Shown one piece after another: positions 4,644 through 19,338 of a stretch of DNA of 64,000 nt. The DNA lies in contig CAIXGS010000054.1 in NCBI GenBank assembly GCA_903919125.1, positions 1-64,000 of the forward strand, read 5' to 3'. The stretch comes from an uncultured Spartobacteria bacterium. Its GTDB lineage: Bacteria; Verrucomicrobiota; Verrucomicrobiia; Chthoniobacterales; Chthoniobacteraceae. Made by a program: the position numbers and the translations under genes. The notes under the pieces were generated by a model. The model had not been told where the DNA came from. It worked only from the letters and a program-made list of their open reading frames with translations, and did not search any database. Positions within the stretch are counted from its first letter, which is position 1. Each line of letters opens with the position of its first letter.

Positions 4644-5535
4644 AAAATGCCGCCACTTCGATCCGGGGGCGCCTTCTTAATCTTTCACGGCTGAGCGGAT
4701 TGCCCTTTAATGGTGTTTTGGAGCAGTGCGCGATAGGGCGTTTTTTGTGGAGGCTCAGTCAGAGTCGAGACCGAAGCCGGTTCATTCTGAAGGGAGCTCA
4801 ACTCTTTCGGCTTTGGAGTAGTGACCTGCACAGGCCCACTCGGGACATAGACCTGCTTGGCTACGGAGACTCTGACGCGACTTAGTTTGTTCGTAGATTT
4901 ACAGAGCTTCTGGAAGCAGGTGGGCATTTTGAAGACGGTCTTGTCTGGGGGCCTGTCAAAACCGAATCAATCCGTAATGAAATGGGTTATGGAGGAGTAC
5001 GTGTGCTCTTACTGGCCAGACTGGACGGAGCGCGAATTCCGCTGCAGGTGGACGTGGGATTTGGCGATGCCGTTACGCCTAATCCCAGAGAATCAGTCTG
5101 GGAGGGCCTGCTGGGTTTTCCTTCAGCAGAATTACTGGTTTATCCTCCCGAGACAGTTGTCGCTGAAAAACTCGAAGCCGCAGTGCTGTTGGGCCTCCGC
5201 AATAGTCGGATGAAAGATTTTTTAATCTGTATTGGCTGAGCTGCAACATGGAGTTTCAGCTAGCAACGCTTTGCGCGGCGGTCCGGGCGACATTTGAGAC
5301 GAAAGGAACGGCCTTGCCTGAGATGATTCCGGTGGCCCTGACCGAGACCTTTTCATCCGAGCACAGCAAGGTGACCCAGTGGGAGGCATTTCTCAGGAAG
5401 AGCAAACTCCCAGCGGGGGGACTAAAAGAGGTTGCCGTCAGGCTCCGGGCTTTCCTCACTCCCGTGCTCTTTCCCCCGTTGAATTTGGAACTGATGGTTT
5501 GGCGCCCGGGCTCAGGATGGAAGCCAGTGGACTAA
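4640..5535 (+). pseudogene. AbiEii-family nucleotidyltransferase toxin, disrupted by a stop and a frameshift
   Basis: Joined across two lesions, this encodes about 298 residues that read as a complete AbiEii/AbiGii nucleotidyltransferase, the toxin of type IV AbiE systems. The first part ends LKGAQLFRLW...RDIDLLGYGD, containing the nucleotidyltransferase core. An in-frame TAG at 4883-4885 interrupts it, and the same frame resumes at once with recognisable AbiEii sequence (YGGVRV, IPLQVDVGFGDAVTP, YPPETVVAEKLEA, NSRMKDF). At the six-T run 5218-5223 one T appears to be missing; adding it joins the frame to NLYWLSCNMEFQLA and on to the TAA at 5533. As written only an 81-residue N-terminal piece would be made. 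Sequencing error is possible for the T-run but less so for the TAG. Confidence 0.85.
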
Positions 5536-5748
5536 AATCTGGACCGCCACTTCGCTGGGGTCTTCTAGGTCTTTGAGCAAGATCGGGAGCAGTTTTACAG
5601 CTCTTCGTTACGCATCGATCAGCGAATCCCAAAGTGTCTCTCCCTTGCAGCCCACTTTGTCCCACGTTTCCCATCCGATGCACTGAATTTCGGTTCGCCT
5701 TTCTAAAAGACTTTGCAAAACCGTTCGTCTTTCTAAAGTGGTCATTAT

Positions 5749-5761
5749 ATAGTCAAACTAT
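5749..5761. promoter_or_regulatory. Inverted repeat at an antitoxin start codon, candidate operator
   Basis: ATAGT-CAA-ACTAT is a perfect 5 bp inverted repeat with a 3 bp spacer that runs into the ATG at 5760. Phd/YefM antitoxins usually repress their own operon by binding short palindromes of this kind; that this repeat does so is inferred from position only. Confidence 0.4.
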
Positions 5762-5987
5762 GGAAATGAGCGTTTCTGAGTTCAAAGCGAAATGCCTCGC
5801 GATTGTGGAGGACATCGCAAACAAAAAAGAGCGGGTGGTAATCACCCGGTACGGACGCGCCGCAGCCGAGGTTATTCCATTCACAGGCGCTACAGGCACG
5901 CCTCTCTTCGGGCGCGCTACCCATACGACCAAGATTCTGGGAGACCTCACCAGCACGGGGGAAACTTGGAATGCAGAATCTTGCTAA
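5760..5987 (+). CDS. Phd/YefM-type antitoxin, module 1
   Basis: A 75-residue protein. The N-terminal half has the Phd/YefM pattern (MSVSEFKAKCLAIVEDI, then VVITRYGRAAAEVIPF), which forms a DNA-binding dimer. The C-terminal tail would wrap around and neutralise the toxin. The start at 5760 was chosen because the family begins at that methionine; the open frame upstream has no family resemblance. The 3' end overlaps the following PIN toxin gene by 17 bp, which implies coupled translation. Function inferred: autorepressor and antidote of the PIN nuclease. Confidence 0.9.
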   Translation: MEMSVSEFKAKCLAIVEDIANKKERVVITRYGRAAAEVIPFTGATGTPLFGRATHTTKILGDLTSTGETWNAESC

Positions 5988-6378
5988 CATCGGGGCGGCA
6001 GTGCTCGACACGCACGCTTGGCTTTGGATAAGTGCTGGCGCTCCCGAGGCCGTCGCAACGGCCACCTTCCGAGGTCGCTGCATTGTGTCGGCCATTTCTG
6101 TCTGGGAAGTTTCGATGCTGGCTGAAAAAGGCCGCTTGGAACTCGCCCCCGACTTGGATGTTTGGATTTCAAACAACCTCACTGCCCCTGTGGAATTGGA
6201 GCCAATCTCGCCGGCAATTTGCATCGCCAGTTGTCGCCTGCTGGAATTTCATGGAGATCCAGCCGACCGACTGATTGTCGCCACAGCAATTACTCTCGGA
6301 CTTCCCTTGATTACCGCGGACAAAAAAATCATCGCGTGGAACCAATCCCAGGCTCGCCTTCAAATTTTGAGTCTTTGA
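5971..6378 (+). CDS. VapC-like PIN-domain toxin, module 1
   Basis: A 135-residue PIN-domain ribonuclease. All four acidic metal ligands are present: D13 (VLDTHAWLW), E46 (SVWEVSML), D99 (DPADRLIVATA) and D117 (LITADKKI). The DTHAWLW form is typical of the VapC subgroup paired with Phd-like antitoxins. The family cleaves structured RNA, often tRNA; the target here is unknown. It overlaps the upstream antitoxin and looks intact. It shares domain architecture but modest sequence identity with the second PIN protein at 8947-9348. Confidence 0.92.
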   Translation: MQNLANIGAAVLDTHAWLWISAGAPEAVATATFRGRCIVSAISVWEVSMLAEKGRLELAPDLDVWISNNLTAPVELEPISPAICIASCRLLEFHGDPADRLIVATAITLGLPLITADKKIIAWNQSQARLQILSL

Positions 6379-6416
6379 AAGGAACGATCCGTACTCACCC
6401 ACCCCTGTGAAAGACT

Positions 6417-6734
6417 TTAACGAGACGAGGGGGACAGACACTCACTCACCACCCCGACCAACGTGATCGAGCCCACCTGTACCGACACCGGATACTCCAC
6501 CTCCACACGCTCCGTGATCGGATGCCCGTTCACCAGCGTCCCACCACCAAGGTCTTCCACCTGCATCCGCTCCCCCGCGAGCCACAACCAAGCGTGTCTG
6601 GCGGCTACATCGTCACCGGCAATCGTGAACACATCAGCCGCCTCTTCCGTGCCGATCACAAACTGGGTCTCCCCAGAGTCAACCGCGCTCAATATCCCAC
6701 TGGGGCCGTGAAGAGTGAGGGACCATTGTTTCAT
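6417..6734 (-). CDS. Small FHA-domain protein whose 3' end runs into a seam repeat
   Basis: A 105-residue protein that is little more than one forkhead-associated domain: FVIGTEEAAD, then DDVAARHAWLWL in the phosphothreonine-binding loop and GGTLVNGHPI. The consensus SxxH appears as AARHA, so the conserved serine is replaced by alanine. The last codons (SECLSP) are encoded by the repeat at 6430-6443, which suggests the original 3' end was replaced when the repeat arrived. FHA domains read serine/threonine kinase signalling or secretion systems; no kinase lies nearby. The start at 6734 was chosen because the FHA fold begins there. Confidence 0.65.
   Translation of the reverse strand: MKQWSLTLHGPSGILSAVDSGETQFVIGTEEAADVFTIAGDDVAARHAWLWLAGERMQVEDLGGGTLVNGHPITERVEVEYPVSVQVGSITLVGVVSECLSPSSR
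6430..6443 (-). repeat. Seam repeat copy 2 (GGGGACAGACACTC)
   Basis: The exact reverse complement of copy 1. It lies 51 bp after the first PIN toxin stop and inside the 3' end of the FHA reading frame. Confidence 0.85.
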
Positions 6735-6870
6735 CAGCGTTACACTTACCGAAATAGACGAAGTGAGCAAGCCGGTGCTGGAGAACGTCGTAAGTCCAAA
6801 GTACAGGAACTCGATGCACGCAAGAGCACACTGAAGAAATCGCGCTGGGGGAGCAAAAAGCAAATTCCAC

Positions 6871-6889
6871 GCCTGACTTCAAGTCAGGC
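6871..6889. promoter_or_regulatory. 19 bp palindrome between divergent genes
   Basis: GCCTGACTT-C-AAGTCAGGC is a perfect 9 bp inverted repeat around one base, between the FHA gene (minus) and the PhzF gene (plus). A regulator-binding site or a dispersed palindrome are both possible. No regulator gene is adjacent. Confidence 0.4.
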
Positions 6890-7061
6890 CGGGTAAAGGA
6901 GAGAGTTGCTACGCCCCCATGACGGCTCAAGGCGTCAACGTCGCGCGCAAGTCCGACAAGAAAGCCACCGGTTCGCAGGCTGGAGACACGCAGGGAAAAG
7001 ATACTTTCTCCTCGGGCAATGTCGTAGACAATGAATTTACCGCTCCGAATGGAGTGATGAT

Positions 7062-7853
7062 ATGAGCCAGACAATCCACATCATCGACGCTTTCACCGAC
7101 AAACCATTCGGCGGCAATCCCGCTGCCGTTTGTCTGCTCAAACACCCCGCTGACGAACAGTGGATGAAACTCGTCGCGCGGGAGATGAACCTTTCGGAGA
7201 CCGCATTCCTTTATCCAATCGAAGGAGGCTTCTCGCTGCGATGGCTGACTCCAGCGGTGGAAGTGAAGCTCTGCGGCCACGCTACGCTGGCGAGCGCCTT
7301 CACACTCTGGGAGACCGGCGTGTTGAAGCCCGATGAAGCAGCGCGCTTTCACACCCTAAGCGGGTGGCTGACCTGCTGGAGAGAAGTCGACTGGATTGCC
7401 ATGGATTTTCCTGCGAAAAGCTGCGCCCCATGCGCGCCTCCCGTTGGTCTCGCCGTAGCCTTGGGCTGCGAGCTCATCGCTTGTGGTCTCAACGGCATGG
7501 ATTATCTCGTGGAGGTGGCAACCGAAACGGTGCTGCGAGGGTTGAAGCCCAATTTCTCGGCACTCTCGCTCCTGCCCGTGCGCGGAGTCATCGTTACCTG
7601 CCGGAGCGAATCGCTTGAGCACGATTTCCTTTCCCGTTTCTTTGCTCCGGCGGCGGGCGTAAATGAAGATCCCGTGACCGGTTCCGCCCATTGTGCCCTA
7701 GGTCCATATTGGCAGGCAAAACTCGGCAAGGCGCACTTCACCGCCTACCAAGCCAGCGAGCGCGGCGGCATCGTGAAGCTAAGTGTGCAAGGCGAGCGTG
7801 TGCTGCTGCGCGGACAGGCCTTGATGATGAGCAGGGCAGAGCTGCTGTGTTGA
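7062..7853 (+). CDS. PhzF-family isomerase/epimerase
   Basis: A 263-residue protein with the PhzF double-hotdog pattern: FTDKPFGGNPAAV near the N-terminus, catalytic-type glutamate E46 in NLSETAFL, CGHATLASA in the middle and DPVTGSAHC in the C-terminal half. In phenazine producers PhzF isomerises trans-2,3-dihydro-3-hydroxyanthranilate; most relatives have unknown small-molecule substrates. No other phenazine gene is present, so the metabolic role is open. A GGAG at 7051-7054 precedes the ATG. It sits alone between two seam repeats. Confidence 0.9.
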   Translation: MSQTIHIIDAFTDKPFGGNPAAVCLLKHPADEQWMKLVAREMNLSETAFLYPIEGGFSLRWLTPAVEVKLCGHATLASAFTLWETGVLKPDEAARFHTLSGWLTCWREVDWIAMDFPAKSCAPCAPPVGLAVALGCELIACGLNGMDYLVEVATETVLRGLKPNFSALSLLPVRGVIVTCRSESLEHDFLSRFFAPAAGVNEDPVTGSAHCALGPYWQAKLGKAHFTAYQASERGGIVKLSVQGERVLLRGQALMMSRAELLC

Positions 7854-7863
7854 GGGGCCGGAA

Positions 7864-7876
7864 GGGACAGACACTT
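7864..7876 (-). repeat. Seam repeat copy 3 (GGGACAGACACTT)
   Basis: A 13 bp copy just after the PhzF stop and 10 bp from the stop of the DUF1553 fragment. It forms an inverted pair with copy 4. Confidence 0.8.
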
Positions 7877-7885
7877 TTGCCCCCT

Positions 7886-8687
7886 TTAGTGGTTGAACAT
7901 AAATTCCGTGGAGTTGAGAAGCGCCCAGACTACGTCCTCATACGGGCGGACGTTGACGGGTGGGGCGGGGATCATTTCCTGAAAACCGGAGAGCTCTTCG
8001 CTTGAGGGACTGCGGCTCAGGCACTTGATGAAAAGTTCGTCAATCACCATGGCAGGCTGCGCCTTGTCCTTCACGTAAGCCTCCAGCGCACCTCCGCAAC
8101 TGAGCCGCGGATTGACGGTGTCTCCAACGGAGAAGTGCAGGGCCTGTGAAAGGGTCGGGGCGGATTTTGTTTCCGTTGAAGAGACGCTTCCGCGCGGACT
8201 GCGTCCCAAGCACTTGAAAACATCGTCGCCGTAGTTTGGACCCTCCGTGCCTCCGGAGGAGCGCGGATAATAATCGATGGCGCGCACGCCGTCAGGGAAG
8301 CCGCTGAAGCGGCGAGGCATTCCCGTGACGGCGATCACACTATCGACGAACACGTCGCCGCGCAGTCTGCGCAAATACGCGCGCGAAAATTGGCGTGTGT
8401 CTCCTCGGTTGGATGCATTGGGGGTGGAGCTGAGCTGGTAGGTGCGCGAGTTGCAGATGTCGCGCACCAGCGCTCGCAGGCTGAAGTTTGAAGCGACGAG
8501 ATGCGTGGCAAGGTCGGCGAGAAGCGGCTCGTTGACGGGCGGATTGGTGACGCGCACGTCGTCTACGGGATGGACGATGCCGCGTCCCATGAGCTGCGCC
8601 CAGACGCGGTTGGCGAGGTTGCGGCTGAAGAGGCTGTTTTCGGGCGACGTCAGCCACTGGGCGAGTGTCTCGAAAAGTGTCTGTCCC
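7886..8687 (-). pseudogene. C-terminal fragment of a DUF1553 (PSD1-type) protein
   Basis: The frame begins inside a DUF1553 domain (ETLAQWLTSPENSLFSRNLANRVW...MGRGIVHPVDD) and continues to a natural end (STEFMFNH then stop), about 265 residues. A full DUF1549/DUF1553 protein has several hundred more N-terminal residues with a cytochrome c-like segment; none of that is present, and an in-frame TGA lies about 20 bp upstream of the break. The break coincides with seam repeat copy 4, and the natural 3' end is followed within 10 bp by copy 3. Read as a gene fragment trapped between two inverted repeats; no start codon or signal peptide suggests expression. Confidence 0.85.
8675..8687 (+). repeat. 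Seam repeat copy 4 (AAGTGTCTGTCCC)
   Basis: A 13 bp copy, exact reverse complement of copy 3, marking the point where the DUF1553 fragment is truncated and the promoter region of the second Phd/PIN module begins. Confidence 0.8.
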
Positions 8688-8705
8688 TCCCAACCCGTGC
8701 TTCAC

Positions 8706-8740
8706 TTGACATCAGACAGAATATCAGACAAATTTGTAGA
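8706..8740 (+). promoter_or_regulatory. Promoter/operator region of Phd/PIN module 2
   Basis: A perfect TTGACA lies at 8706-8711. The octamer ATCAGACA occurs twice, at 8711-8718 and 8723-8730, spaced 12 bp, about one helical turn. No clear -10 box was found at standard spacing. The direct repeat between promoter and start codon fits an operator for the autoregulating antitoxin. The 17 bp AATATCAGACAAATTTG (8720-8736) recurs with 14 of 17 matches at 19529-19545. Confidence 0.45.
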
Positions 8741-8965
8741 ATGCAGACGACTGTCACCGAGCTGTTGCGGGAATTTCCTAAGGTTCGGAGGGCTGTGCTC
8801 TCCGGAGAAACCGTCATCATCCGCAGCCGAGAGGGGAATATGCGCCTCACTCTGGACCACGGAGAAGACCAGCCACGGGTAGGCGCGCTCCGAGGCCTGG
8901 TTCAAACTCAGGAGGACCTTGCCGCTCCAACAACCGTAGCTACCGAATGGAGTCCGTCTCTGTGA
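8741..8965 (+). CDS. Phd/YefM-type antitoxin, module 2
   Basis: A 74-residue protein (TVTELLREFPKVRRAVLSGETVIIRS, with the N-terminal fold of Phd-like antitoxins) followed by a charged tail. The start at 8741 is the first methionine after the promoter-like region; the open frame before it is antisense to the DUF1553 fragment. It overlaps the downstream PIN toxin by 19 bp, the same layout as module 1. Sequence similarity to the module 1 antitoxin is low, so this is a separate acquisition rather than a recent duplication. Confidence 0.82.
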   Translation: MQTTVTELLREFPKVRRAVLSGETVIIRSREGNMRLTLDHGEDQPRVGALRGLVQTQEDLAAPTTVATEWSPSL

Positions 8966-9348
8966 AGTATCTTCTAGACACACACGCCGCCATCTGGGCG
9001 GCTGAAGAGGATCCAAAGCTTGGCCAACGTGCGAAGCTCGCGCTCCTCGCCTCAGCTGCGGGCGACGCTTTGATTTCGGATATCACGCTCCTCGAAATCT
9101 CGATGCTGGTGAAAAAGGGTAAAATCCAAATTCAAATTTCGACTTCGGAGTATCTGAGACGCCTCCAATTCCTCTACCCTCCCGTTCGAATCACACCCAA
9201 CATAGCAACTCTTGCGATGGACCTCAATCTCCCACACGGAGATCCGTTTGACAGGATCATCGTGGCAACGGCCAGCGAGCTGCAGTTAACTTTGCTCACT
9301 AAAGATCATCACATCATGGAAAGTAAACTCGTGCCCACTCTGTGGTAA
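8947..9348 (+). CDS. VapC-like PIN-domain toxin, module 2
   Basis: A 133-residue PIN-domain nuclease with D11 (LLDTHAAIW), E50 (TLLEISML), D102 (DPFDRIIVATA) and D120 (LLTKDHHI), the complete acidic set. The ISMLVKKGKI stretch parallels VSMLAEKGRL in the first PIN protein, so both belong to the same VapC subgroup. Likely an RNase restrained by the overlapping upstream antitoxin. The module is framed by seam repeats at 8675-8687 and 9452-9465, 791 bp from first to last repeat base. Confidence 0.92.
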   Translation: MESVSVKYLLDTHAAIWAAEEDPKLGQRAKLALLASAAGDALISDITLLEISMLVKKGKIQIQISTSEYLRRLQFLYPPVRITPNIATLAMDLNLPHGDPFDRIIVATASELQLTLLTKDHHIMESKLVPTLW

Positions 9349-9451
9349 CCTCCGAGGGTCGGCAATCTCTGCGAGCGGACTCCGGGATGAGGACACAATC
9401 CTTTAACGCGCCCCGCGACGGGACGGCGCGTGAGCTTCGGGCGTCCATGGA

Positions 9452-9465
9452 GGGGACAGACACTT
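9452..9465 (-). repeat. Seam repeat copy 5 (GGGGACAGACACTT)
   Basis: A 14 bp copy at the right side of Phd/PIN module 2. Together with copy 4 it brackets that module in the same orientation as copies 1 and 2 bracket the first toxin-antitoxin segment. Confidence 0.85.
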
Positions 9466-9556
9466 CCCCCTCCCTCAGTCAAGTTGTCAGAACCGAAGTT
9501 ACTGCTCCACGCTAGTACATCTCTCGCTACGGATGCAGGGGGAAAAGGCTTTACCC

Positions 9557-9570
9557 GAGTGTCTGTCCCC
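9557..9570 (+). repeat. Seam repeat copy 6 (GAGTGTCTGTCCCC)
   Basis: An exact 14 bp match to copy 1. It forms an inverted pair with copy 5, with 91 bp between them, and lies just downstream of the 3' end of the truncated minus-strand AbiEii gene. Confidence 0.85.
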
Positions 9571-9697
9571 TGCGTCTTCCCTTGATGAAATCGCAGAGTG
9601 GAAATGTACGAATTTTACGGATTTGGACGACGGCACCAGAGAATTGCCATTGCGCCTCCATTGGAAGGCGGTTCACTGGATTCCCCCCGTCAGGAAA

Positions 9698-10357
9698 TCA
9701 GAGTTGAGCCAATGCAAGCCTGACTTGCTCTTCGATGACCTGCGTGAGGTAAGTCCACCAGGCTGGATTTTCCAGCGTGTCCCGCACCGTAGTGGCGGGG
9801 AGAAAGCGGCGCATTTCCTTTAGAAAATCTTCGCGCAACTGCGGCTCATCTTTCAGAGCTACGGAGCGCCTTTGCAGCAGTGATACAAACTCGTCCTCTT
9901 CGCGCCGATGGTCTCGGATCTTTACGGGGATAAGCTCTGCGGGCAACTCAACGCCCTGCTGCACCAGCCACGCTATGTCCCATAGATCTCGGTTTTTAAT
10001 GCGGCTCGCGCGGAAAGCCAGTGCGACCATTTTGTCGGCCAATATCTCCTCGCGGCTCTGTGCTTGCAGGATAAGGCCCGAGGTCCCGAGGTCGATCCCG
10101 TACAGGTTGCGCAACATCATCGGACGCGGGGCATGGCTGGGAATCGCGCAAATATCCAAATGAATGCGCTGCGCGGGCAGATGCCGCTGCCCCGAGCGGG
10201 TCTCAATGGTGAGCTTCCAAGTGGAAACATTGCCCCCAGATTTCACCGGTTCGCTGATGCGAACAGGCAGTCCATAACGGCTTTGCAGTCGTTCAGTGAG
10301 TACAACCGCAAGAGCCGAGAGATCCTCCTTTTTGAAACCACTGACGTGGGCTGGCGC
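9698..10357 (-). pseudogene. 5'-truncated AbiEii/AbiGii nucleotidyltransferase toxin
   Basis: About 219 residues in the frame directly after the IclR stop codon match the C-terminal two thirds of a second AbiEii subtype: FKKEDLSALAVVLTERLQ, LPAQRIHLDICAIPS, RNLYGIDLGTSGLI, EEILADKMVALAFR, IKNRDLWDIAWL. The N-terminal nucleotidyltransferase core (the glycine-serine motif and first catalytic aspartates) is missing; homology stops where the IclR gene ends. A GTG near 10246 could start a shorter piece but would remain inactive. No antitoxin is adjacent. It differs from the AbiEii at 4640-5535, so two unrelated AbiE toxins have decayed in this region. Confidence 0.85.
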
Positions 10358-11188
10358 TCAAGCGTGCGGAACGCTGACGAAATGCGGCGCATTCGGCCGG
10401 TAACCCAAATGAAGCGAAAGCTGATCGGCGAGCTGCTTCACCTTGAGTCCTAGTTTTTCAAAAGCGCCCGCCGTGACGCGATCCGAGGGGCCGCTGATCC
10501 AGATCGAGGCGAGCGGATGGCCGCGATGATCGAACACAGGCGCGGCGACGCAGGCAAAGGTTTCGCTCTCTTCTCCACGGTCGAGGGCGAAGCCTTGCGT
10601 TTTTACCTTCCTGAGTTCGGCCAGGTAGGCAGTGGCGCTGGTGATCGTGTGGCGGGTGTGTTTGGTGAACTTGATCTGCTGCACGAATGCCTTCTGTGCC
10701 TCGGGGCTCCAGCACGCGAGCATGGCCTTTGCGGGCGCGGCAGTGTGCAGGGGGAAGGCATGACCGATTTCAACCATGACCTTCACCGGATGCGACGACG
10801 GCACCTGATCAAGCACTACGCCGTGATTGCCGGCCAGCGTTCCCAGCAGCGCGGTTTCGCCCGTGGCATCGCGCAAGGCGATGAGGATGAGGGCGGCGGC
10901 TTGGGTGAGGCGCTCGCCGCCTACGGCCGCATGACCGAGGCTGAGGAGCTTGCGGCTGGCGCGGTAGGTCTTCGTGTCTTCATCGCGCTCGACGTAGCTC
11001 CGAAGGGTGAGCGTGGTGGCGATGCGGAAGACCGAGTTCTTCGGCATCTTCAGCGCTTCGGTCATCGTGGTGAGCGTCATGCCTTCCGGGTGCCGCGAGA
11101 GCAGCTCCAGCAGATCTAGCGTGCGCCCCAAGATGGGCACCATGTAGCGGCTGAGAGGGTTGACGGCAGGCTTCCGAGCTTTAGGCAT
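10358..11188 (-). CDS. IclR-family transcriptional regulator
   Basis: A 276-residue regulator. The N-terminal winged helix-turn-helix lies at about residues 17-75 (LGRTLDLLELLSRHPEGMTL...MPKNSVFRIATTL), followed by the IclR effector domain (FPLHTAAPAKAMLA, GFALDRGEESETFACVAAPVFD, ASIWISGPSDR). The start at 11188 was chosen for family length; the frame is open to 11245. It is divergent from an SDR remnant and a beta-helix gene. IclR proteins often control the divergent catabolic gene; here the probable target, a dehydrogenase, survives only as a fragment. Paired TTTG/CAAA sites upstream may be its operators. Confidence 0.92.
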   Translation of the reverse strand: MPKARKPAVNPLSRYMVPILGRTLDLLELLSRHPEGMTLTTMTEALKMPKNSVFRIATTLTLRSYVERDEDTKTYRASRKLLSLGHAAVGGERLTQAAALILIALRDATGETALLGTLAGNHGVVLDQVPSSHPVKVMVEIGHAFPLHTAAPAKAMLACWSPEAQKAFVQQIKFTKHTRHTITSATAYLAELRKVKTQGFALDRGEESETFACVAAPVFDHRGHPLASIWISGPSDRVTAGAFEKLGLKVKQLADQLSLHLGYRPNAPHFVSVPHA

Positions 11189-11190
11189 GC

Positions 11191-11224
11191 GTTTGATATA
11201 CAAAACAAGGTTTGATATTGCAAA
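11191..11224. promoter_or_regulatory. Twin TTTG-N5/6-CAAA sites upstream of the IclR gene
   Basis: GTTTGATAT occurs at 11191-11199 and again at 11210-11218. Each is followed by CAAA, giving two half-palindromes TTTG-ATATA-CAAA (11192-11204) and TTTG-ATATTG-CAAA (11211-11224), 19 bp apart. They lie immediately upstream of the IclR start and in the region shared with the divergent frame, where an autoregulatory operator is expected. Binding is inferred. Confidence 0.45.
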
Positions 11225-11275
11225 TGTACATTCGGTAGCCTTCACTCCGGTTTTTCATTTCAAGACTATTCCCAA

Positions 11276-11416
11276 ATGACAAACACGTCCTCATTCACCG
11301 TCATCGCCACCGGCGCTTCCAGTGGAGAGGGCGCGGACATCACGGATGCCTTTCTAAAAGTGGAGACTCGCGGCTGGATCACCGGCCGCACCTCAGCGCA
11401 GCTCCACGCCAAAACT
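11276..11416 (+). pseudogene. N-terminal remnant of a short-chain dehydrogenase (SDR)
   Basis: The ~45 codons before the beta-helix gene, in the same frame, read as an SDR N-terminus: a VIATGASSGEG segment matches the nucleotide-binding TGxxxGxG motif, and AFLK followed by ITGRTSAQL matches the helix and second strand of the Rossmann fold. The match then stops and the signal peptide of the next gene begins. Inferred: an SDR gene divergent from the IclR regulator lost everything after its first ~45 codons in a deletion that brought the beta-helix gene next to it, in frame. Confidence 0.6.
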
Positions 11417-12679
11417 ATGCGTACCCTTTTGTTTCTCATCGCCTTCGCACCGCTCCTTCATGCGGCGGAACATTTAATCCAGCCCGGCAATCATCCCCAA
11501 GAAATTCTGGATCGCGCAGCCTCAGGTGACCGCCTCGTGTTTCAGCCCGGCCTGCACGAACACCAACCCGGCAAATACCGTGCGCTTCTATACGTGGACA
11601 AATCCGTCGAAATCGAACTTAAGCAGGGGGCGACACTCAAGCTCGCGAACAATGCCACAAAGCTCGAGGCCACCCCCGAAATCACCACCGACCAAGATGC
11701 CGGCAAGAAGCTCGACGATATGGAGGTCGGCGGCGCTTTCGACCTCACCAGTTCTTCCATCTTTACGATCGTCACAGATTCCGAGGGTCCTGAAGGACAG
11801 ACAGACACGTTTGCATGGGGGGTCTTTCACAATGTGGAAAATCCCGAGGGTAGCGGGCGGCTCGCAGCCTCCGAAAGCAAGTTTGCAGAAACGCCCCACC
11901 GGGGCGTCCCGATCACCGGCGACTGGCAGGAGCTTGCGAACGGCGTGAAGATCCGCTTCGCTCACAAGTCCGGCCACAACAAGGGTAGCCGCTGGTTTGT
12001 TACCTACGACGGGCCCGAGGCCTACGGCATCCGAATCGGCTACGGTCGCCAGTCCGACTACATCGAAAACGTGCGCATCACCGGCAAAGGCACCATCGAT
12101 ATGAACGCTACACACAATGTGCAGCCTGGCTTTCTCGTGAAGGATATCAACGCCTGCGTGCTCATTCACGGGCGCGTGCGCGGCGTGGTGGTCGAGGACA
12201 TCACGATGACCGATACCAACCGCTCGGTCATGTGCTACGGCGAACATAGCGGCAAATTCCTGCCAGGCGGGGCTGTGACGCCCGGCACATCCTTCGACGC
12301 CGAAGACATCACCATTCAGCGCACCCGTACTTTGAATCCCAACGGAGCCGCTTACCTACTCGGTCACCCTTCGTTCCGGGGCAATCTGCGCAAAGTGAAA
12401 TGCAACTACAACTACATGGAGACCGCCGTCACTGCCATCGAACCGAACTTCAATCTCGATGGCTATGAGGTGATCGGAAACGTGATCAAAAGTGGCGGCA
12501 ACGCGATCCACTGCTGGCGCCACTCGAAGAATGGCGTCATCGCCGACAACCTCCGCATCCACGATAACACGGGCAGGGCCGTCGTTGTGATGGGCGCCCC
12601 GAAAGGCTGGGAAGCCCCAGAGAAGCCCGTGTCGAGAAACAACCGGAATCATCTCGCTGACACCGCGCCCAAGCCATAG
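11417..12679 (+). CDS. Secreted right-handed parallel beta-helix protein
   Basis: A 420-residue protein with a signal peptide (MRTLLFLIAFAPLLHA). Repetitive short strands such as VRITGKGTIDM, VVVEDITMTDTN, EDITIQRTRT and GVIADNLRIHDN, with stacked asparagine/valine positions, indicate a right-handed parallel beta-helix, the fold of pectate lyases, polysaccharide lyases and epimerases. No catalytic signature of a specific lyase family was recognised. The start at 11417 was chosen because it begins the signal peptide; the in-frame upstream stretch is an SDR remnant. A role in polysaccharide binding or cleavage is inferred from the fold and from the carbohydrate genes that follow. Confidence 0.75.
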   Translation: MRTLLFLIAFAPLLHAAEHLIQPGNHPQEILDRAASGDRLVFQPGLHEHQPGKYRALLYVDKSVEIELKQGATLKLANNATKLEATPEITTDQDAGKKLDDMEVGGAFDLTSSSIFTIVTDSEGPEGQTDTFAWGVFHNVENPEGSGRLAASESKFAETPHRGVPITGDWQELANGVKIRFAHKSGHNKGSRWFVTYDGPEAYGIRIGYGRQSDYIENVRITGKGTIDMNATHNVQPGFLVKDINACVLIHGRVRGVVVEDITMTDTNRSVMCYGEHSGKFLPGGAVTPGTSFDAEDITIQRTRTLNPNGAAYLLGHPSFRGNLRKVKCNYNYMETAVTAIEPNFNLDGYEVIGNVIKSGGNAIHCWRHSKNGVIADNLRIHDNTGRAVVVMGAPKGWEAPEKPVSRNNRNHLADTAPKP

Positions 12680-13111: not shown

Positions 13112-14149
13112 TTAGGGCCGGATACTGGCGCCATCGATCCATGCCGGTGGAATGAGAATCTGTCGTGGCACTTCGGGGAGCCCCCGCTCGTTGTGCTGCA
13201 GCTGAGTCGCGACAAGATTAATGGCGGCGGCGGCAACGTGGTTTCGCCGTTGATGGATGCCCGCAAATCCCGCCATGCGCGCGGTCCAGTCGTGAACAAC
13301 GAGCCCGATATCGTCGGGAATCCTCAGCCCCAATTTCGCCAACCACTCCGGAACGTAAGTATCGAATGAAATAAGCGCGTCGGGAGTGCTGTCCTTCATC
13401 CATGCCCTGAACGCGCCTCCACATCGGCTGAGGTTGTTGTGAGGCAGCAGTAAAAGAGGGACCCGCTGGGAACGGGGCAGGCTCTTTTGAAAATGCAGCA
13501 TGGATGCCGAGTACGTGTGTTCGCTGCGGTCGTCAACCCACTTGGTCACCGCCAAACCAATCCTTTTATAACCGCGTGCAGCGAGTTCGCTAGCCGCCTG
13601 ATGAATACCCAAAGTCATATTCCCTGCTGCACGGTGGAGCGGCGTTTTTAATCCGTACCCGAAGGTTGCCGCGGCGAAATCGGTATAATCCAACTGCCCG
13701 CACCGCATTTCGGAAGACTGCGGTGACACAATCATGCCCTCTATGCCGCGAGCCTTCAGGATGTTTGTGAGCCGCGCAGGGGTGAGTCGATCGATCCCCA
13801 GATGGAACTCTTCGATCTGGTAGCCGTGCTGTCCCGCCCGCACTGCAATATCCTCCAGTGAAACGTATTGGTAGGCTGCATCGTGGAGTTCGTCCTGCGC
13901 ACCAACCTCCCGAATCACCGCAAGGGTAGCCCGAGTCCCGCTCGCCTTCCGGCCCCGTACCAAGTGCATCATCCGGCTCAGGTGCGGGTCCGGTTGATAA
14001 CCCAGTTCCTCAGCCGCCTGCAGTACGCGCGTCCGGGTGGAAGCTGCCACTTTCGGAGATCCACGAAGCACGCGCGAAACCGTCATTGCGGATGCGCCGG
14101 ATTTAGCTGCAATCGCCCTCACTCCAATCATCCCAGATCCGGTGCTCAT
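13112..14149 (-). CDS. LacI-family transcriptional regulator
   Basis: A 345-residue LacI-type regulator. The DNA-binding headpiece is at residues 8-56 (VRAIAAKSGASAMTVSRVLR, then TRTRVLQAAEELGYQPDP), followed by a periplasmic-binding-protein-like effector domain (GIEGMIVSPQSSE, RGYKRIGLAVTK, DALISFDTYVPEWL, GLRIPDDIGLVVHD). The start was set at 14149, next to the headpiece; the frame is open to 14266. It is divergent from the sialidase operon with a 22 bp inverted repeat in between, so it most likely represses that operon until a sugar-derived ligand binds. Confidence 0.92.
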   Translation of the reverse strand: MSTGSGMIGVRAIAAKSGASAMTVSRVLRGSPKVAASTRTRVLQAAEELGYQPDPHLSRMMHLVRGRKASGTRATLAVIREVGAQDELHDAAYQYVSLEDIAVRAGQHGYQIEEFHLGIDRLTPARLTNILKARGIEGMIVSPQSSEMRCGQLDYTDFAAATFGYGLKTPLHRAAGNMTLGIHQAASELAARGYKRIGLAVTKWVDDRSEHTYSASMLHFQKSLPRSQRVPLLLLPHNNLSRCGGAFRAWMKDSTPDALISFDTYVPEWLAKLGLRIPDDIGLVVHDWTARMAGFAGIHQRRNHVAAAAINLVATQLQHNERGLPEVPRQILIPPAWIDGASIRP

Positions 14150-14209
14150 CTCAGTTTGTGCGGTTGGTTTTGAGAAAGGAATGCGTTCCAGCATCCTCCA
14201 CGCGCTCTT

Positions 14210-14231
14210 TTGTAACCTAAAAATGTTACAA
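14210..14231. promoter_or_regulatory. 22 bp inverted repeat, candidate LacI-family operator
   Basis: TTGTAAC (14210-14216) and GTTACAA (14225-14231) form perfect 7 bp arms around an A/T-rich 8 bp spacer. The site lies roughly midway between the divergent starts at 14149 and 14305, where a single operator could control both genes. LacI-family operators are near-palindromes of this size, though usually with a central CG, which is absent here. Confidence 0.6.
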
Positions 14232-14304
14232 TACCACGAAGTATCTTTTGAGGGCATCAACGCCACAAGCTAAAGCCTATCCCAGCTCAAAAACACATCC
14301 CTTC

Positions 14305-16644
14305 ATGAACTCCCCAGTCCGCTCGTTCGTTTTCTCGTTGCTCTTGTCTGGTTTCGCTCATGCCGCAGACGCGCCGTTAGCGAGTTCCTTTAACCCCGAT
14401 CTGTCGCTGGAACCGCCAGTAATTAACACCCAGCCCGGGCCGGAATACGCCGATGCCGTTCGCCCAGGCAATATGATCCTCGGCATAGATCGCACCCCAA
14501 AAGGGCGTCTCTGGGCCGCGTGGGTCGGCAATGGCGATAGTCCCAACGGGTTCTTCATGCTCGCCACCAGCGACGACGAGGGGAAGTCGTGGTCCAAACC
14601 ACGGGTCGTCATTGATCCCACCGATCCCGAAGGACAACCCAACCGACGTTCCCTTGTCGGTAATTTATGGACGGATCCAATGGGGCGCCTCTGGTGTTTC
14701 TTCGATCAAAGCCTTGGGTACTTTGATGGCCGCGCAGGCGATTGGTACATTCGGTGTGATGATCCTGATGCGGCGGACCCCGTCTGGACAAAGCCTGTGC
14801 GGTTTGCCGATGGCTGCACGCTTAATAAGCCAACAGTGCTGGCCAACGGTGATTGGTTGCTGCCGGTGTCGCTCTGGACGCGGAACTGGATCGGGGCTTG
14901 GAGCGGTGCACGCAATTTTCCTCGGGTCGAGAAGTTCAAGGATTTGCACAAGGATCTAGATTCGATCCGCATGGCGAATGTCTATGTCTCCAGCGACAGG
15001 GGCGAGACTTGGACGCGGCGCGGCGGAGTCGCTTTTCCCGAAAGCCAGTTCGATGAACACATGATCATCGAACGCAAGGACGGTTCGCTATGGATGCTCG
15101 GGCGAACCAACCAAGGTTTGAGCGAAAGCACGTCCATAGACCAAGGTCGGACGTGGAGCGCACCCACACCCAGCTCGATTCGCAACCCGAGTGCGCGTAT
15201 CTTTATCCGCCGCTTGGCATCTGGAAATCTGCTTTTGGTGAAACATGGACCAATCGATGTGGCGCTCTCCAGGCGATCCAATCTGACTGCATTTCTTTCG
15301 CAGGATGACGGCAAATCCTGGGGGACGGGACTGCTTTTGGATGAGCGTTCCGAGGTCTCGTATCCCGACGGCTTTCAAGCACCGGATGGGACGATCCATA
15401 TTCTCTACGATTGGAACCGGCACACCGACGCGGAGATTTTGCTTACGAAGTTTCGTGAAGAAGACATCGTTTCCGGAAAGCTTAGCTCGCCAGGGTCAAA
15501 GTCGCGAATGCTTGTAAACAAAGCATTTGCGCCGCAGTTGCCGCGCGCCATCGTGCCCGATCCAAAATGGACCGCGCAGGCGGAGCAAGACGCGAAAGAG
15601 GACTACAATAGCGTCCCGTATGACGGAGTGACACCAAACAAAATGGTGTGTGACACCACCCTACGCCAGTTGCCGGATGGCTCGTGGATTCTCTTCATGC
15701 TCGCCGGTGGCGACACCGAACCATCGCCCCTGAACTACACCGGAGTTACGCGAAGCAACGACAAAGGACGGACATGGACACCGCTGGAACCCTTCAATGT
15801 AGGGTTTCCGCGCGAGGGAAAAACAATGGGGCAAGGGCCAACAGAACTCATGATTCTGGGCCAACAGAGCACACTCTTTTTCTCCACGCACTCGAAGCAC
15901 TGGGCGAATGACTGGCGCTCGTGGTTTCTGACTAGCGACGATTCCTTTAAGACTTGGAGCATTCCGCAAGAAGTGCCGGGACGTTTAAAAGAGCGTACCT
16001 TCATTCGGAAACACATCGTCACCCGCGATGGTCGCCTCATGATACCTTTCCAGCACTATATCGGTCCCGATGCCGAGCAAGACAAGGCGCCGCTGGATCG
16101 CGCATTCACAAACCCACGTAACGGCGTGCTCATCAGTAGCGACAAGGGCAAGACGTGGACCGAACACGGCAACATTCGCCTTACGCCGAACGATCGTTAT
16201 TTTGGTTGGGCGGAGAACGATCTCTTTGAGCACCCGGACGGCAGGATCACTATGGCAATCAGGGCCGACGGTCTAGGCGGCTTGCTCTACAAGGCAGAGA
16301 GCAAGGACGGTGGTAAAACATGGCCAGAATTCGCCAGCATCACGCCGATACCAAATCCTGGAAGCAAGACGACGCTCTATAATCTCGGGGGTGAAACCGT
16401 CGCCATTTTGCACAACCCGAACAGCAAACACCGCAGCCCGATGGCCCTTTGGATCAGCTTCGACGGAATGAAGACGTGGCCCTACCAGCGCGTCCTGCAA
16501 CAGGAGTCCGTCGATGGCCCCAAGGGAAGAATGAATTACCCCGATGGCTTCGTGAGCGACGACAAACAGTGGCTCCACTTCGCCTTCGATGACAACCGCC
16601 ACCGGGCAGTGCATTACTCGGCGAAGCTCCCGCCGCTTAAATGA
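14305..16644 (+). CDS. Secreted sialidase-family protein with two BNR propellers
   Basis: A 779-residue exported protein; signal peptide MNSPVRSFVFSLLLSGFAHA. It carries at least seven Asp-box (BNR) motifs of the form S-x-D-x-G-x-T-W: SDDEGKSW, SSDRGETW, SIDQGRTW, SQDDGKSW, SNDKGRTW, SSDKGKTW and SKDGGKTW, spread over two halves (about 40-400 and 430-779). That is twice the size of a single six-bladed sialidase domain, suggesting two fused or duplicated propellers. Exo-alpha-sialidases and related hydrolases or lyases remove terminal acidic sugars; the substrate cannot be told from sequence. It is the first gene of a three-gene operon with a kinase and an aldolase, overlapping the next gene by ATGA. 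Confidence 0.85.
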   Translation: MNSPVRSFVFSLLLSGFAHAADAPLASSFNPDLSLEPPVINTQPGPEYADAVRPGNMILGIDRTPKGRLWAAWVGNGDSPNGFFMLATSDDEGKSWSKPRVVIDPTDPEGQPNRRSLVGNLWTDPMGRLWCFFDQSLGYFDGRAGDWYIRCDDPDAADPVWTKPVRFADGCTLNKPTVLANGDWLLPVSLWTRNWIGAWSGARNFPRVEKFKDLHKDLDSIRMANVYVSSDRGETWTRRGGVAFPESQFDEHMIIERKDGSLWMLGRTNQGLSESTSIDQGRTWSAPTPSSIRNPSARIFIRRLASGNLLLVKHGPIDVALSRRSNLTAFLSQDDGKSWGTGLLLDERSEVSYPDGFQAPDGTIHILYDWNRHTDAEILLTKFREEDIVSGKLSSPGSKSRMLVNKAFAPQLPRAIVPDPKWTAQAEQDAKEDYNSVPYDGVTPNKMVCDTTLRQLPDGSWILFMLAGGDTEPSPLNYTGVTRSNDKGRTWTPLEPFNVGFPREGKTMGQGPTELMILGQQSTLFFSTHSKHWANDWRSWFLTSDDSFKTWSIPQEVPGRLKERTFIRKHIVTRDGRLMIPFQHYIGPDAEQDKAPLDRAFTNPRNGVLISSDKGKTWTEHGNIRLTPNDRYFGWAENDLFEHPDGRITMAIRADGLGGLLYKAESKDGGKTWPEFASITPIPNPGSKTTLYNLGGETVAILHNPNSKHRSPMALWISFDGMKTWPYQRVLQQESVDGPKGRMNYPDGFVSDDKQWLHFAFDDNRHRAVHYSAKLPPLK

Positions 16645-17702
16645 GCCGCAAAGATATCTATTATTGGAAATGCGACCGTCCCTCCGCGTTTCACGGCACC
16701 CAAACGCGTGGCGAACCAGATCTAGCGCTGCAGTCGCAACTTGTTGAGGAGTTGCAGCGTTACTTCCATTGCGACTCGGTAGTTCTGAGTGCCGGCGGTG
16801 GGCAAGGAAACCACCTCACATGGGTCGGCCGCGTGGACGGGAAGGAGATGTTTGTGCGCGTCGAAAACGGCCCGGAAATGGACGGTCAACTCGCGGTAGA
16901 ATCCGCCGTTTTGGAGCTTGTGCGCGGAGTGGGCGTTTCGACTCCGCAGGTATATGGGTGTGATGCGTCGCGTAGTCGTGTCCCCTTTGCGTGGCAGGCC
17001 CTCGAAAAAATATCTGCTCCCGACCTCAACCATTGGTACAAGCAAGGCGTGCTCGAGTTGCCGAACATTGCGTTCGCAATCGGTGTCGAAGTGGCGAAAT
17101 GGCAGGCCCTCACATTGCCGGGCATGGGCGTGCTTGATGGCTCACTCAAAGGTTTTCATTCGAGGTACGAGGACTATTACCACCTTCGTCTCGACCAACA
17201 TTTGGGATTCTTGGTCCAAAGAGGTTTGCTGACGCCTCCCGAACGGAGTGCCATAGAAGCCGTGATTAACGAGCACGCCTCGCTGCTTCGCATCGAACAC
17301 GGGTGCTTCGTTCATAAAGACCTCGCACTTTGGAATATCCTTGGGACCCAATCCGAAATCCAAGCCTTTATAGACTTTGATGACGCCATAAGCGGGGACA
17401 CGATGGACGATCTTTCGCTGTTGGCCTGTTTTCACGGCGCTGCGTTCCTCGAACGTGCATTCGATGGCTACCAAAGCGTACGACCGTTGCCAGAAGAATA
17501 CAGACGACGCTTCTGGTTGCACCTGTTGCGAAACATGATCGTGAAGGCGGTAATTCGTGTCGGGGCCGGTTACTTCGATCGTGCCGGGGATTTCTTTCTT
17601 CTCGGTAATGGCGGCGGCGAAGCCTTGCGCAAATTCACCCAAGCCCGACTGCACCTCGCTTTAGAGGGTATCGAAAAAGATTCAGAACTTTCAATTCTAT
17701 GA
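16641..17702 (+). CDS. APH-fold phosphotransferase (probable small-molecule kinase)
   Basis: A 353-residue cytoplasmic protein with the aminoglycoside-phosphotransferase/choline-kinase fold. The catalytic loop reads VHKDLALWNIL (H225, D227, N232; HxDxxxxN) and the metal site IDFDD (D245). Relatives phosphorylate antibiotics, choline, homoserine or sugars. It overlaps the sialidase gene by ATGA at its start and the aldolase gene by ATGA at its end, so the three products should be made together. In that setting the natural substrate is more likely a sugar or sugar acid released by the upstream enzyme than an antibiotic; this is inference. Confidence 0.85.
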   Translation: MSRKDIYYWKCDRPSAFHGTQTRGEPDLALQSQLVEELQRYFHCDSVVLSAGGGQGNHLTWVGRVDGKEMFVRVENGPEMDGQLAVESAVLELVRGVGVSTPQVYGCDASRSRVPFAWQALEKISAPDLNHWYKQGVLELPNIAFAIGVEVAKWQALTLPGMGVLDGSLKGFHSRYEDYYHLRLDQHLGFLVQRGLLTPPERSAIEAVINEHASLLRIEHGCFVHKDLALWNILGTQSEIQAFIDFDDAISGDTMDDLSLLACFHGAAFLERAFDGYQSVRPLPEEYRRRFWLHLLRNMIVKAVIRVGAGYFDRAGDFFLLGNGGGEALRKFTQARLHLALEGIEKDSELSIL

Positions 17703-18439
17703 ATACAAATGCATTGCAACTTGGAACATTCCTCTCCATCGGATCGCCAGCCATCGCTGAATTGGCAGCAGAGTCTGGTTTTGACTGGGTGTTGATTGAT
17801 CTGGAGCACGGCTGCGAATCCGATGGTAGCCTGCCACATCAACTGCGCGCTTTGCGGGGCAGTCGCACCAAGGCGATCGTCCGAGTTGGCGCACCGCATG
17901 CGGAACTGATTTCGCGCGTGCTGGACTGGGGCGCGGATGGCATCATGGTGCCGCACGTGAATTCGGCCGCGGAAGCCGAGGCTATTGTTCAGGCTGCCCA
18001 CTACGCCCCGCGCGGGCATCGAGGATTTTCGCGGACCGTCCGCGCTTATGGTTATGGACTTCGCCCGCCAGGCGACAAAATGCCGATGCCACTCCTTATG
18101 GCCCAAATCGAAAGCGTTGTTGGCGTGACGCACGCCGCTGAAATCGCCCGCGTGGAAGGGGTCGACGTGCTCTTTGTTGGGCCTGCCGACTTACAGTTCG
18201 ACCTCCAGCACCAGCCCGCAGCCGACTGGGACTATGCAGCGTGTCTTCGTTCCGTTGTTACCGCGACTCAGACGGCGGGAAAAGCCGCTGGCATTCTGGT
18301 GCGGGAGTTGACGGATCTTCATTCCCACGTCGACCTTGGCTTCACCCACGTCGCAGTGGATTCCGATTTATCGATCCTCCGAAACGCTTACAGACAAGTG
18401 CTTTCACATGTGGGTCAGTCGTTGTTGCGAAGGCGGTAG
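17699..18439 (+). CDS. HpcH/HpaI-family aldolase
   Basis: A 246-residue class II (metal-dependent) aldolase of the HpcH/HpaI family. Recognisable elements are FDWVLIDLEHG (catalytic histidine), AIVRVGAP (substrate arginine), MAQIES (metal glutamate) and VLFVGPADLQ (metal aspartate). Family members cleave 2-keto-3-deoxy acids such as 2-keto-3-deoxy-rhamnonate or 4-hydroxy-2-ketoheptanedioate into pyruvate and an aldehyde. Here it would finish a pathway begun by the sialidase-like enzyme and the kinase. Its 3' end overlaps the convergent gene 18415-19338 by 25 bp. Confidence 0.9.
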   Translation: MNTNALQLGTFLSIGSPAIAELAAESGFDWVLIDLEHGCESDGSLPHQLRALRGSRTKAIVRVGAPHAELISRVLDWGADGIMVPHVNSAAEAEAIVQAAHYAPRGHRGFSRTVRAYGYGLRPPGDKMPMPLLMAQIESVVGVTHAAEIARVEGVDVLFVGPADLQFDLQHQPAADWDYAACLRSVVTATQTAGKAAGILVRELTDLHSHVDLGFTHVAVDSDLSILRNAYRQVLSHVGQSLLRRR

Positions 18440-19338
18440 GCGGCCTGAAGCATTTCCTTCAGAAGATCGCGATGTTTTGTGATTTCCTGAGCGGTCAGGC
18501 GAATCCGGTATTTGCGGTAACGAGCGTTGTAGTCAATGAGGGTGATTCCACTTTTTTCAACCCGCTCGTCAATTTCGGGCGATTGCGGAAGAATTATCTC
18601 CAAAGTCATCACGTTTTTACGAGGGAGACACAGCGCGAAAAGGACGGACTTTCCGCCAACTTGAAACCCGATATAGGGCTTTTTGTACGTGAGCTGGATA
18701 TCAGGTGACGCAAAACTACGCGCTAGCTCCAAGATCTGGTCCGCCATTTTCACAGCGGTCGGTGTGGCACGGGATTCCCAGTAGGCGCGGTCGGCTGGGG
18801 TGTAGGCCTCCTCATCCTCATCTTCCAAACCACGTTGAGTGGCATCGAGCACCTTCGTAAAAATTAGTCCGACGCCCTCAGGCATCTGAACGGCCCGCAT
18901 CTGGATAGCAATGATAGGAATCGAGCCGTTGAAAAGACCGATGACATTCAGAAAACGGCTAGTGATGTCCTCGGCAATGATAACGGCTATGTGCTCGTAC
19001 TGCGGGTAGCGCTTCCGCTCGATGTCCCAATATTCAAGCGTGCGGATGATGTGGGATGGATCGGTGGCGCCAAGCTGGATTTCGACTTCGTAGCGGGCCG
19101 CAGATTCCGTATCCTGAAGAAGCATGTCGAGGCGACCGGCACCAGGATGGAGGCGTTCTCGATCGCGGACGGCGACATCGCCTAGGCCGAGGATGGATGG
19201 GTCCTCAGCGATGCGGTCATGAATCCAGACTTCGTTGATTTCCTTGGATGCCTTCAGATCGACGGGGGCTATGCGAACATGTTTCATGGGGCGAGGAGAA
19301 GGGGTACGCAAAGAAAAGGGAATTTTGTCAGGAGACAT
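18415..19338 (-). CDS. PD-(D/E)XK-like protein of unknown function (DUF5655-like C-terminus)
   Basis: A 307-residue cytoplasmic protein of a widespread uncharacterised family. The N-terminal half (residues ~35-160) has a restriction-endonuclease-like pattern: LHPGAGRLDMLLQD, then ARYEVEIQLGATD, where the usual E-x-K of the PD-(D/E)XK site is E-x-Q. YWDIERKRYPQYEHIAVIIAEDI and RFLNVIGLFNG follow. The C-terminal ~95 residues (LTYKKPYIGFQVG to YRIRLTAQEI) resemble DUF5655. ATGs at 19338 and 19287 are both possible starts. DNA binding or nuclease activity is suggested but the altered lysine makes catalysis uncertain. Confidence 0.8.
   Translation of the reverse strand: MSPDKIPFSLRTPSPRPMKHVRIAPVDLKASKEINEVWIHDRIAEDPSILGLGDVAVRDRERLHPGAGRLDMLLQDTESAARYEVEIQLGATDPSHIIRTLEYWDIERKRYPQYEHIAVIIAEDITSRFLNVIGLFNGSIPIIAIQMRAVQMPEGVGLIFTKVLDATQRGLEDEDEEAYTPADRAYWESRATPTAVKMADQILELARSFASPDIQLTYKKPYIGFQVGGKSVLFALCLPRKNVMTLEIILPQSPEIDERVEKSGITLIDYNARYRKYRIRLTAQEITKHRDLLKEMLQAAYRLRNND

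Follow-up and report, generated by a model that had tools for sequence, protein, structure and literature searches.

A conserved sialidase-fold, APH-fold kinase and HpaI-type aldolase cassette of Verrucomicrobiota as a probable LacI-controlled module for 3-deoxy-2-ulosonic acid catabolism

Bacterial nan operons, which combine a sialidase, a transporter, NanA, NanK, NanE and NagA/NagB, are the natural starting point for describing the gene cluster considered here. Like them, this cluster and its relatives join a secreted hydrolase of the sialidase fold, an importer, a pyruvate aldolase, a sugar kinase and a local regulator. Unlike in nan operons, the aldolase is of the HpaI/GarL rather than the DHDPS type, the kinase has an APH fold instead of belonging to the ROK family, the transporter is an SBF protein, the regulator is of the LacI type, and no NanE-like gene was found in the genome. 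A comparable food source, glycan-derived non-sialic ulosonic acids, may be seen in the release of Kdo and Dha from rhamnogalacturonan-II in gut Bacteroides, although the clusters have no identified set of RG-II enzymes next to them. Kdo, Dha and similar ulosonic acids are present in plant, algal and bacterial glycans. GH33 sialidases hold the C1 carboxylate of an ulosonic acid with an arginine triad, HpaI-type aldolases cleave 4-hydroxy-2-keto acids with formation of pyruvate, and SBF proteins transport organic anions together with sodium. In the literature searched, no description was found of the present gene set, nor of the catabolism of Kdo, Dha or ulosonic acids with HpaI aldolases.

In the window, i.e., the whole stretch of 64,000 nucleotides that was analysed, the list of open reading frames places a LacI-type regulator gene divergent from three co-directional genes encoding a sialidase-fold protein, a kinase and an aldolase (Table 1). 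The sequence-only reading had named these three genes, their families and their ATGA overlaps, all of which are borne out by the reading frames and by Pfam and NCBIfam matches. The products of the four genes are assigned to the LacI, BNR_2, APH/fructosamine kinase and HpcH/HpaI aldolase families, and four-base overlaps lie at both junctions, at 16641-16644 (sialidase/kinase) and 17699-17702 (kinase/aldolase). The listed frame of the sialidase-fold gene opens upstream of its ATG, at TTG 14248. The regulator probably starts near 14131, because its helix-turn-helix begins only near residue 46 of the listed frame. The source genome is of the metagenome type, comprises 87 contigs and is 95% complete; genome-wide statements on it refer to family searches only. 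Two further reading frames of the window may be mentioned. A predicted 422-aa protein with no Pfam or NCBIfam match (11411-12679) adjoins an IclR regulator gene (10358-11245), and the end of a 307-aa minus-strand frame with no Pfam match (18415-19338) runs into that of the aldolase gene.

Table 1. Coordinates of the genes, domains and candidate regulatory sites of the locus within the window
Feature	Position	Strand	Evidence or remark
LacI-family regulator	13112..14131 (listed ORF 13112-14266)	-	PF00356 5e-14, PF13377 2.4e-7
Perfect inverted repeat TTGTAAC-8-GTTACAA, candidate regulator site	14210..14231	.	Between the divergent starts
TGTTACAATACCA, operator-like motif copy	14224..14236	.	Two mismatches to TGTTAnCATAACA of orthologous operons
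Type B protein, secreted, double sialidase fold, 779 aa	14305..16644	+	PF13088 in both halves
N-terminal propeller of type B protein	14410..15537	+	Arg63, Glu251, Arg267, Arg324, Tyr353
C-terminal propeller of type B protein	15583..16641	+	Arg454, Asp470, Glu637, Arg653, Arg710, Tyr745
APH-fold kinase	16641..17702	+	PF01636 1.8e-16, PF03881 1.7e-7; 61-sequence alignment
HpaI/GarL-type class II pyruvate aldolase	17699..18439	+	PF03328 2.5e-37

The type B protein begins with what by eye is a Sec-type signal peptide (MNSPVRSFVFSLLLSGFAHA/AD). Its AlphaFold model (pLDDT 81) has the six-bladed propeller fold of GH33-type sialidases, and the Foldseek matches are headed by sialidases. The structural comparison covers mainly the C-terminal propeller, which aligns with the Micromonospora viridifaciens sialidase over 317 residues (VIA comparison, Z 34.1, rmsd 2.8), while the N-terminal propeller is assigned from its sequence, its residues and its profile match. 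Both propellers retain the Arg triad, Glu and Tyr of sialidases, and the Glu-to-Arg spacing is 16 in each, which we take to match that of Glu260 and Arg276 in the Micromonospora enzyme. The N-terminal Glu, Tyr and last two arginines occur in every aligned row covering that domain, and Arg63 in most. Asp78 and Asp470 lie at about the position of the GH33 acid/base Asp; Asp78 is replaced by Pro or Glu in some relatives, and secure conservation of the acid/base residue in the N-terminal propeller is uncertain. BNR_2 proteins are diverse, and the type B protein may still be related to Kdo or Dha hydrolases, none of which appears among the structural match rows.

The aldolase carries the metal ligands (Glu, Asp) and the active-site His and Arg of class II enzymes, its residues Glu36-His37, Arg62, Glu138 and Asp164 being invariant in 40 sequences and corresponding to Glu46, His47, Arg72, Glu151 and Asp177 of AbHpaI (PMC8560999). 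In vitro, aldolases of the HpcH/HpaI family take polyhydroxy aldehydes, erythrose and ribose among them, as substrates (PMC7610986). The protein shares PF03328 and the metal- and pyruvate-binding residues with GarL, HpaI and RhmA (YfaU), but it stays far below the NCBIfam equivalog cut-offs (151.6 vs 368.8 bits for HpaI, 146.5 vs 406.75 for GarL), and its genomic partners are a sialidase and a kinase. The best profile match is GarL (1dxe, E 3.5e-57), a likeness that would be in line with an aldarate such as Dha without being discriminating. It also fits a different scheme, in which the propellers act on another acidic glycan (e.g., glycosides of uronic acids, or products of lyases), with the kinase and aldolase belonging to a GarL/RhmA-like 2-keto-3-deoxy-aldonate or aldarate pathway. 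A polysaccharide lyase gene within one orthologous operon (L033), a protein with a PcRGLX-like lyase domain encoded near another (L079), and the Gfo/Idh/MocA and 2-hydroxyacid dehydrogenase genes that adjoin some clusters are in keeping with such a scheme. However, the sialidase residues are retained in both propellers, and no dehydratase converting an aldonate into a 2-keto-3-deoxy acid is seen among the annotated cluster genes; this scheme is regarded as unlikely.

The kinase shows the HxDxxxxN signature of the APH superfamily in the motif VHKDLALWN (His225, Asp227, Asn232), followed by Asp245, and these four residues are invariant in the alignment. Its model (pLDDT 90) matches a fructosamine-3-kinase-like protein (Z 23.6) and APH(4)-Ia (Z 23.4) at 10-22% identity in structural alignments, and its fold is equally compatible with many small-molecule kinases. 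Compared with fructosamine-3-kinase, methylthioribose kinase and APH(4)-Ia, the fold and catalytic motif are the same, whereas the window kinase has conserved motifs of its own, YWKCDRPxAF and RFWLHLLRNMIVKAVIR, and an invariant arginine (R73) at the ATP-binding position that is usually lysine in APH-fold kinases. It constitutes a separate subfamily.

Searching genomes, one per species, with the kinase as query yielded 73 other loci at 46-68% identity. The nearest relatives by kinase are mostly Verrucomicrobiaceae and Prosthecobacter MAGs; the titles of MAG records (some Planctomycetes, Klebsiella) are unreliable as taxonomy. When 388 genomes were sampled evenly across the phylum, the kinase was present in 19, and the distribution of the cassette is therefore patchy. 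Where it occurs, the aldolase gene directly follows the kinase gene in 65 of the 71 loci with enough sequence, with overlapping ends in 42 of these pairs. A BNR/sialidase gene lies within 10 kb of the kinase in 40/49 testable loci, and an SBF (sodium/bile-acid-symporter family) transporter gene lies just upstream of it in 47/64 and is absent there in 17/64. The recurrent order is LacI, a second type of double-propeller BNR protein (type A), sometimes B, SBF, kinase, aldolase and sometimes B. In Larkinella, a member of another phylum, four loci (L074-L076, L080) contain SusC/SusD, one or more BNR proteins, kinase and aldolase, and the direct succession sialidase-kinase-aldolase of the window is repeated. 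A few kinases (e.g., L058, L083) have neither aldolase nor sialidase nearby. Pairwise distances of kinases and aldolases are correlated (r=0.79; best of 300 permutations 0.24). The prospect that relatives would carry the three genes only separately did not materialise: they are co-inherited in Verrucomicrobiota and several Bacteroidota, and this, together with the recurrence of the core set across about 70 genomes, rules out a chance gene order.

The same gene context bears on the idea of an antibiotic or metabolite-resistance kinase that stands beside sugar genes by accident. Its fold does match aminoglycoside and hygromycin kinases, but identity to them is only about 15%, and in phyla far apart it is found together, and evolves in concert, with the aldolase. 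Activity on antibiotics only, a possibility raised in the sequence-only reading, is improbable because the aldolase gene almost always comes directly after the kinase gene; on these grounds, an accidental resistance gene was judged a very remote explanation.

Among the BNR proteins of the relatives, frames of about 1600-1830 aa (L068:3642-8981, with similar ones in L034, L035, L038, L045, L052 and L056) resemble single-frame fusions of an A-type with a B-type double propeller. Type A proteins often end with a conserved stretch of about 125 residues beyond the matched BNR domains (e.g., L022:6356-9034, residues ~768-892).

The remark that no transporter is included holds for the window and fails for the system. 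In orthologous operons, the SBF gene lies between the sialidase and kinase genes, and the contig of the window (G000:C54) carries a copy at about 104.4-105.3 kb; its immediate predecessor is an A-type double-propeller gene, itself preceded by Gfo/Idh/MocA and 2-hydroxyacid dehydrogenase genes. This distant half (L092) lies 85-91 kb from the operon of the window. Two relatives, L061 and L096, have the continuous order dehydrogenase, Gfo/Idh/MocA, A, SBF, kinase, aldolase, B. This contiguous order corresponds to the two halves found apart here. Most simply, the arrangement was divided in this genome, and the window seems to contain one of the resulting parts. Near the distant half, a 1653-aa repetitive frame (L092:13079-18040) has the look of an autotransporter.

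The LacI gene of the window has counterparts with 55-60% identity beside orthologous operons. When one mismatch is allowed, 31 other fetched loci contain a 13-bp operator-like palindrome, TGTTAnCATAACA, compared with a chance expectation that we estimate at about 0.04 sites per 20 kb. Where these genes were mapped, it adjoins the LacI gene or the first gene of the operon, and it also precedes B in L031, L033 and L067. Its copy in the window overlaps the perfect 7+8+7 inverted repeat TTGTAACCTAAAAATGTTACAA, whose first base is the position 14210 at which the sequence-only reading let the locus begin. This repeat has no other exact match in the genome, and no GTAAC/GTTAC repeat of such kind was found in the other fetched loci; it was thus rejected as a family-wide operator, the shared motif being TGTTAnCATAACA. 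The LacI protein may bind at these candidate sites. The 18 kb fetched around the distant half contain no such motif; joint regulation of both halves is consequently unsupported, and control of the distant half by the LacI protein of the window was dropped. A scan of 14050-18700 for sigma-70-type promoters found none and is uninformative.

Taken together, the role of the GH33 Arg triad, the cleavage catalysed by HpaI-type enzymes and the transport of anions by SBF proteins point to a 3-deoxy-2-ulosonic acid that would be released, imported, cleaved and phosphorylated. The locus is, with moderate confidence, a LacI-controlled catabolic module for such an acid, which may be a variant of sialic acid or resemble Kdo, KDN or Dha. 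The secreted enzymes with double sialidase folds would release the acid from a glycan, and the SBF-family sodium symporter would import it in most relatives. The HpaI/GarL-type aldolase would then cut it into pyruvate and an aldose or aldose acid, and the APH-fold kinase would phosphorylate the product of the aldolase, as NanK acts after NanA, or else the acid before cleavage. In the present genome, these functions would be divided between the regulator, sialidase B, kinase and aldolase of the window and the sialidase A, transporter, hydroxyacid dehydrogenase and Gfo/Idh/MocA protein of the distant half. Known HpaI/GarL enzymes act on substrates that carry no phosphate, and free sugars are the substrates of several APH-fold kinases; for this reason, cleavage before phosphorylation is slightly favoured and appears at least as likely as the reverse. 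The original proposal of a pathway for an acidic, possibly ulosonic, sugar is in this way strengthened by the sialidase residues of both propellers, the pyruvate-type aldolase, the conserved SBF gene and the shared candidate operator, while its order of phosphorylation followed by cleavage is the slightly less favoured of the two.

The best reading is that of a sialic-acid-type module with a non-orthologous kinase, aldolase and, probably, transporter. More specifically, and at somewhat less than even confidence, the cassette spread among Verrucomicrobiota and some Bacteroidota may encode a hitherto undescribed route for breaking down a non-sialic ulosonic acid (e.g., Dha, Kdo or KDN of algal, plant or bacterial glycans). 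Its members would include a new APH-family kinase for sugars or sugar acids, as well as a class II aldolase and an SBF-family symporter, both for ulosonic acids. The conserved transporter, kinase, aldolase and candidate operator would then offer testable enzymes for a missing ulosonic acid route. They would also give functions to groups annotated by family only, i.e., double-propeller BNR proteins, a subfamily of APH-fold kinases and a branch of SBF transporters.

It had further been stated that the usual sialic acid genes are missing. This is correct for the cluster, which has an HpaI-type aldolase in place of a DHDPS-type NanA and an APH-fold kinase without a ROK-type NanK, and for NanE, since the genome, at 95% completeness, gives no PF04131 match. 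It does not extend to NanA, as NanA-like genes occur elsewhere in the genome. One of them belongs to a locus (L114, G000:C23:39000-49315) in which genes for a NanM-like epimerase, a NanA-like DHDPS-family lyase, an RraA-like protein and a BNR sialidase stand in a row (5011-10035). Although NanE is unmatched, this is a likely Neu5Ac locus. A further frame beside these genes, at 5011-5715, looks by eye like a GntR regulator.

Because L114 pairs these genes, Neu5Ac is a less likely substrate of the window's cluster than other acids. An ordinary Neu5Ac operon, with an HpaI protein in the role of NanA and an APH protein in that of NanK, would agree with the closest solved structures of the propellers, which are true sialidases, and with the presence of an aldolase and a kinase both here and in nan operons. 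Such an operon is nevertheless rather improbable here, given the better candidate in L114 and the failure to find NanE, which the ordinary route needs; nor are SBF proteins, to our knowledge, a known type of sialic acid transporter. A third locus (L115, G000:C4:83000-99500) encodes a BNR protein, a DHDPS-type aldolase and a ribulokinase-type FGGY kinase (6929-11644), with an AraC regulator adjoining. It could serve another ulosonic acid route, a path from Kdo to arabinose/ribulose being one guess. The three BNR loci of this genome each adjoin different pyruvate-type aldolase genes, which supports a general sialidase-aldolase logic.
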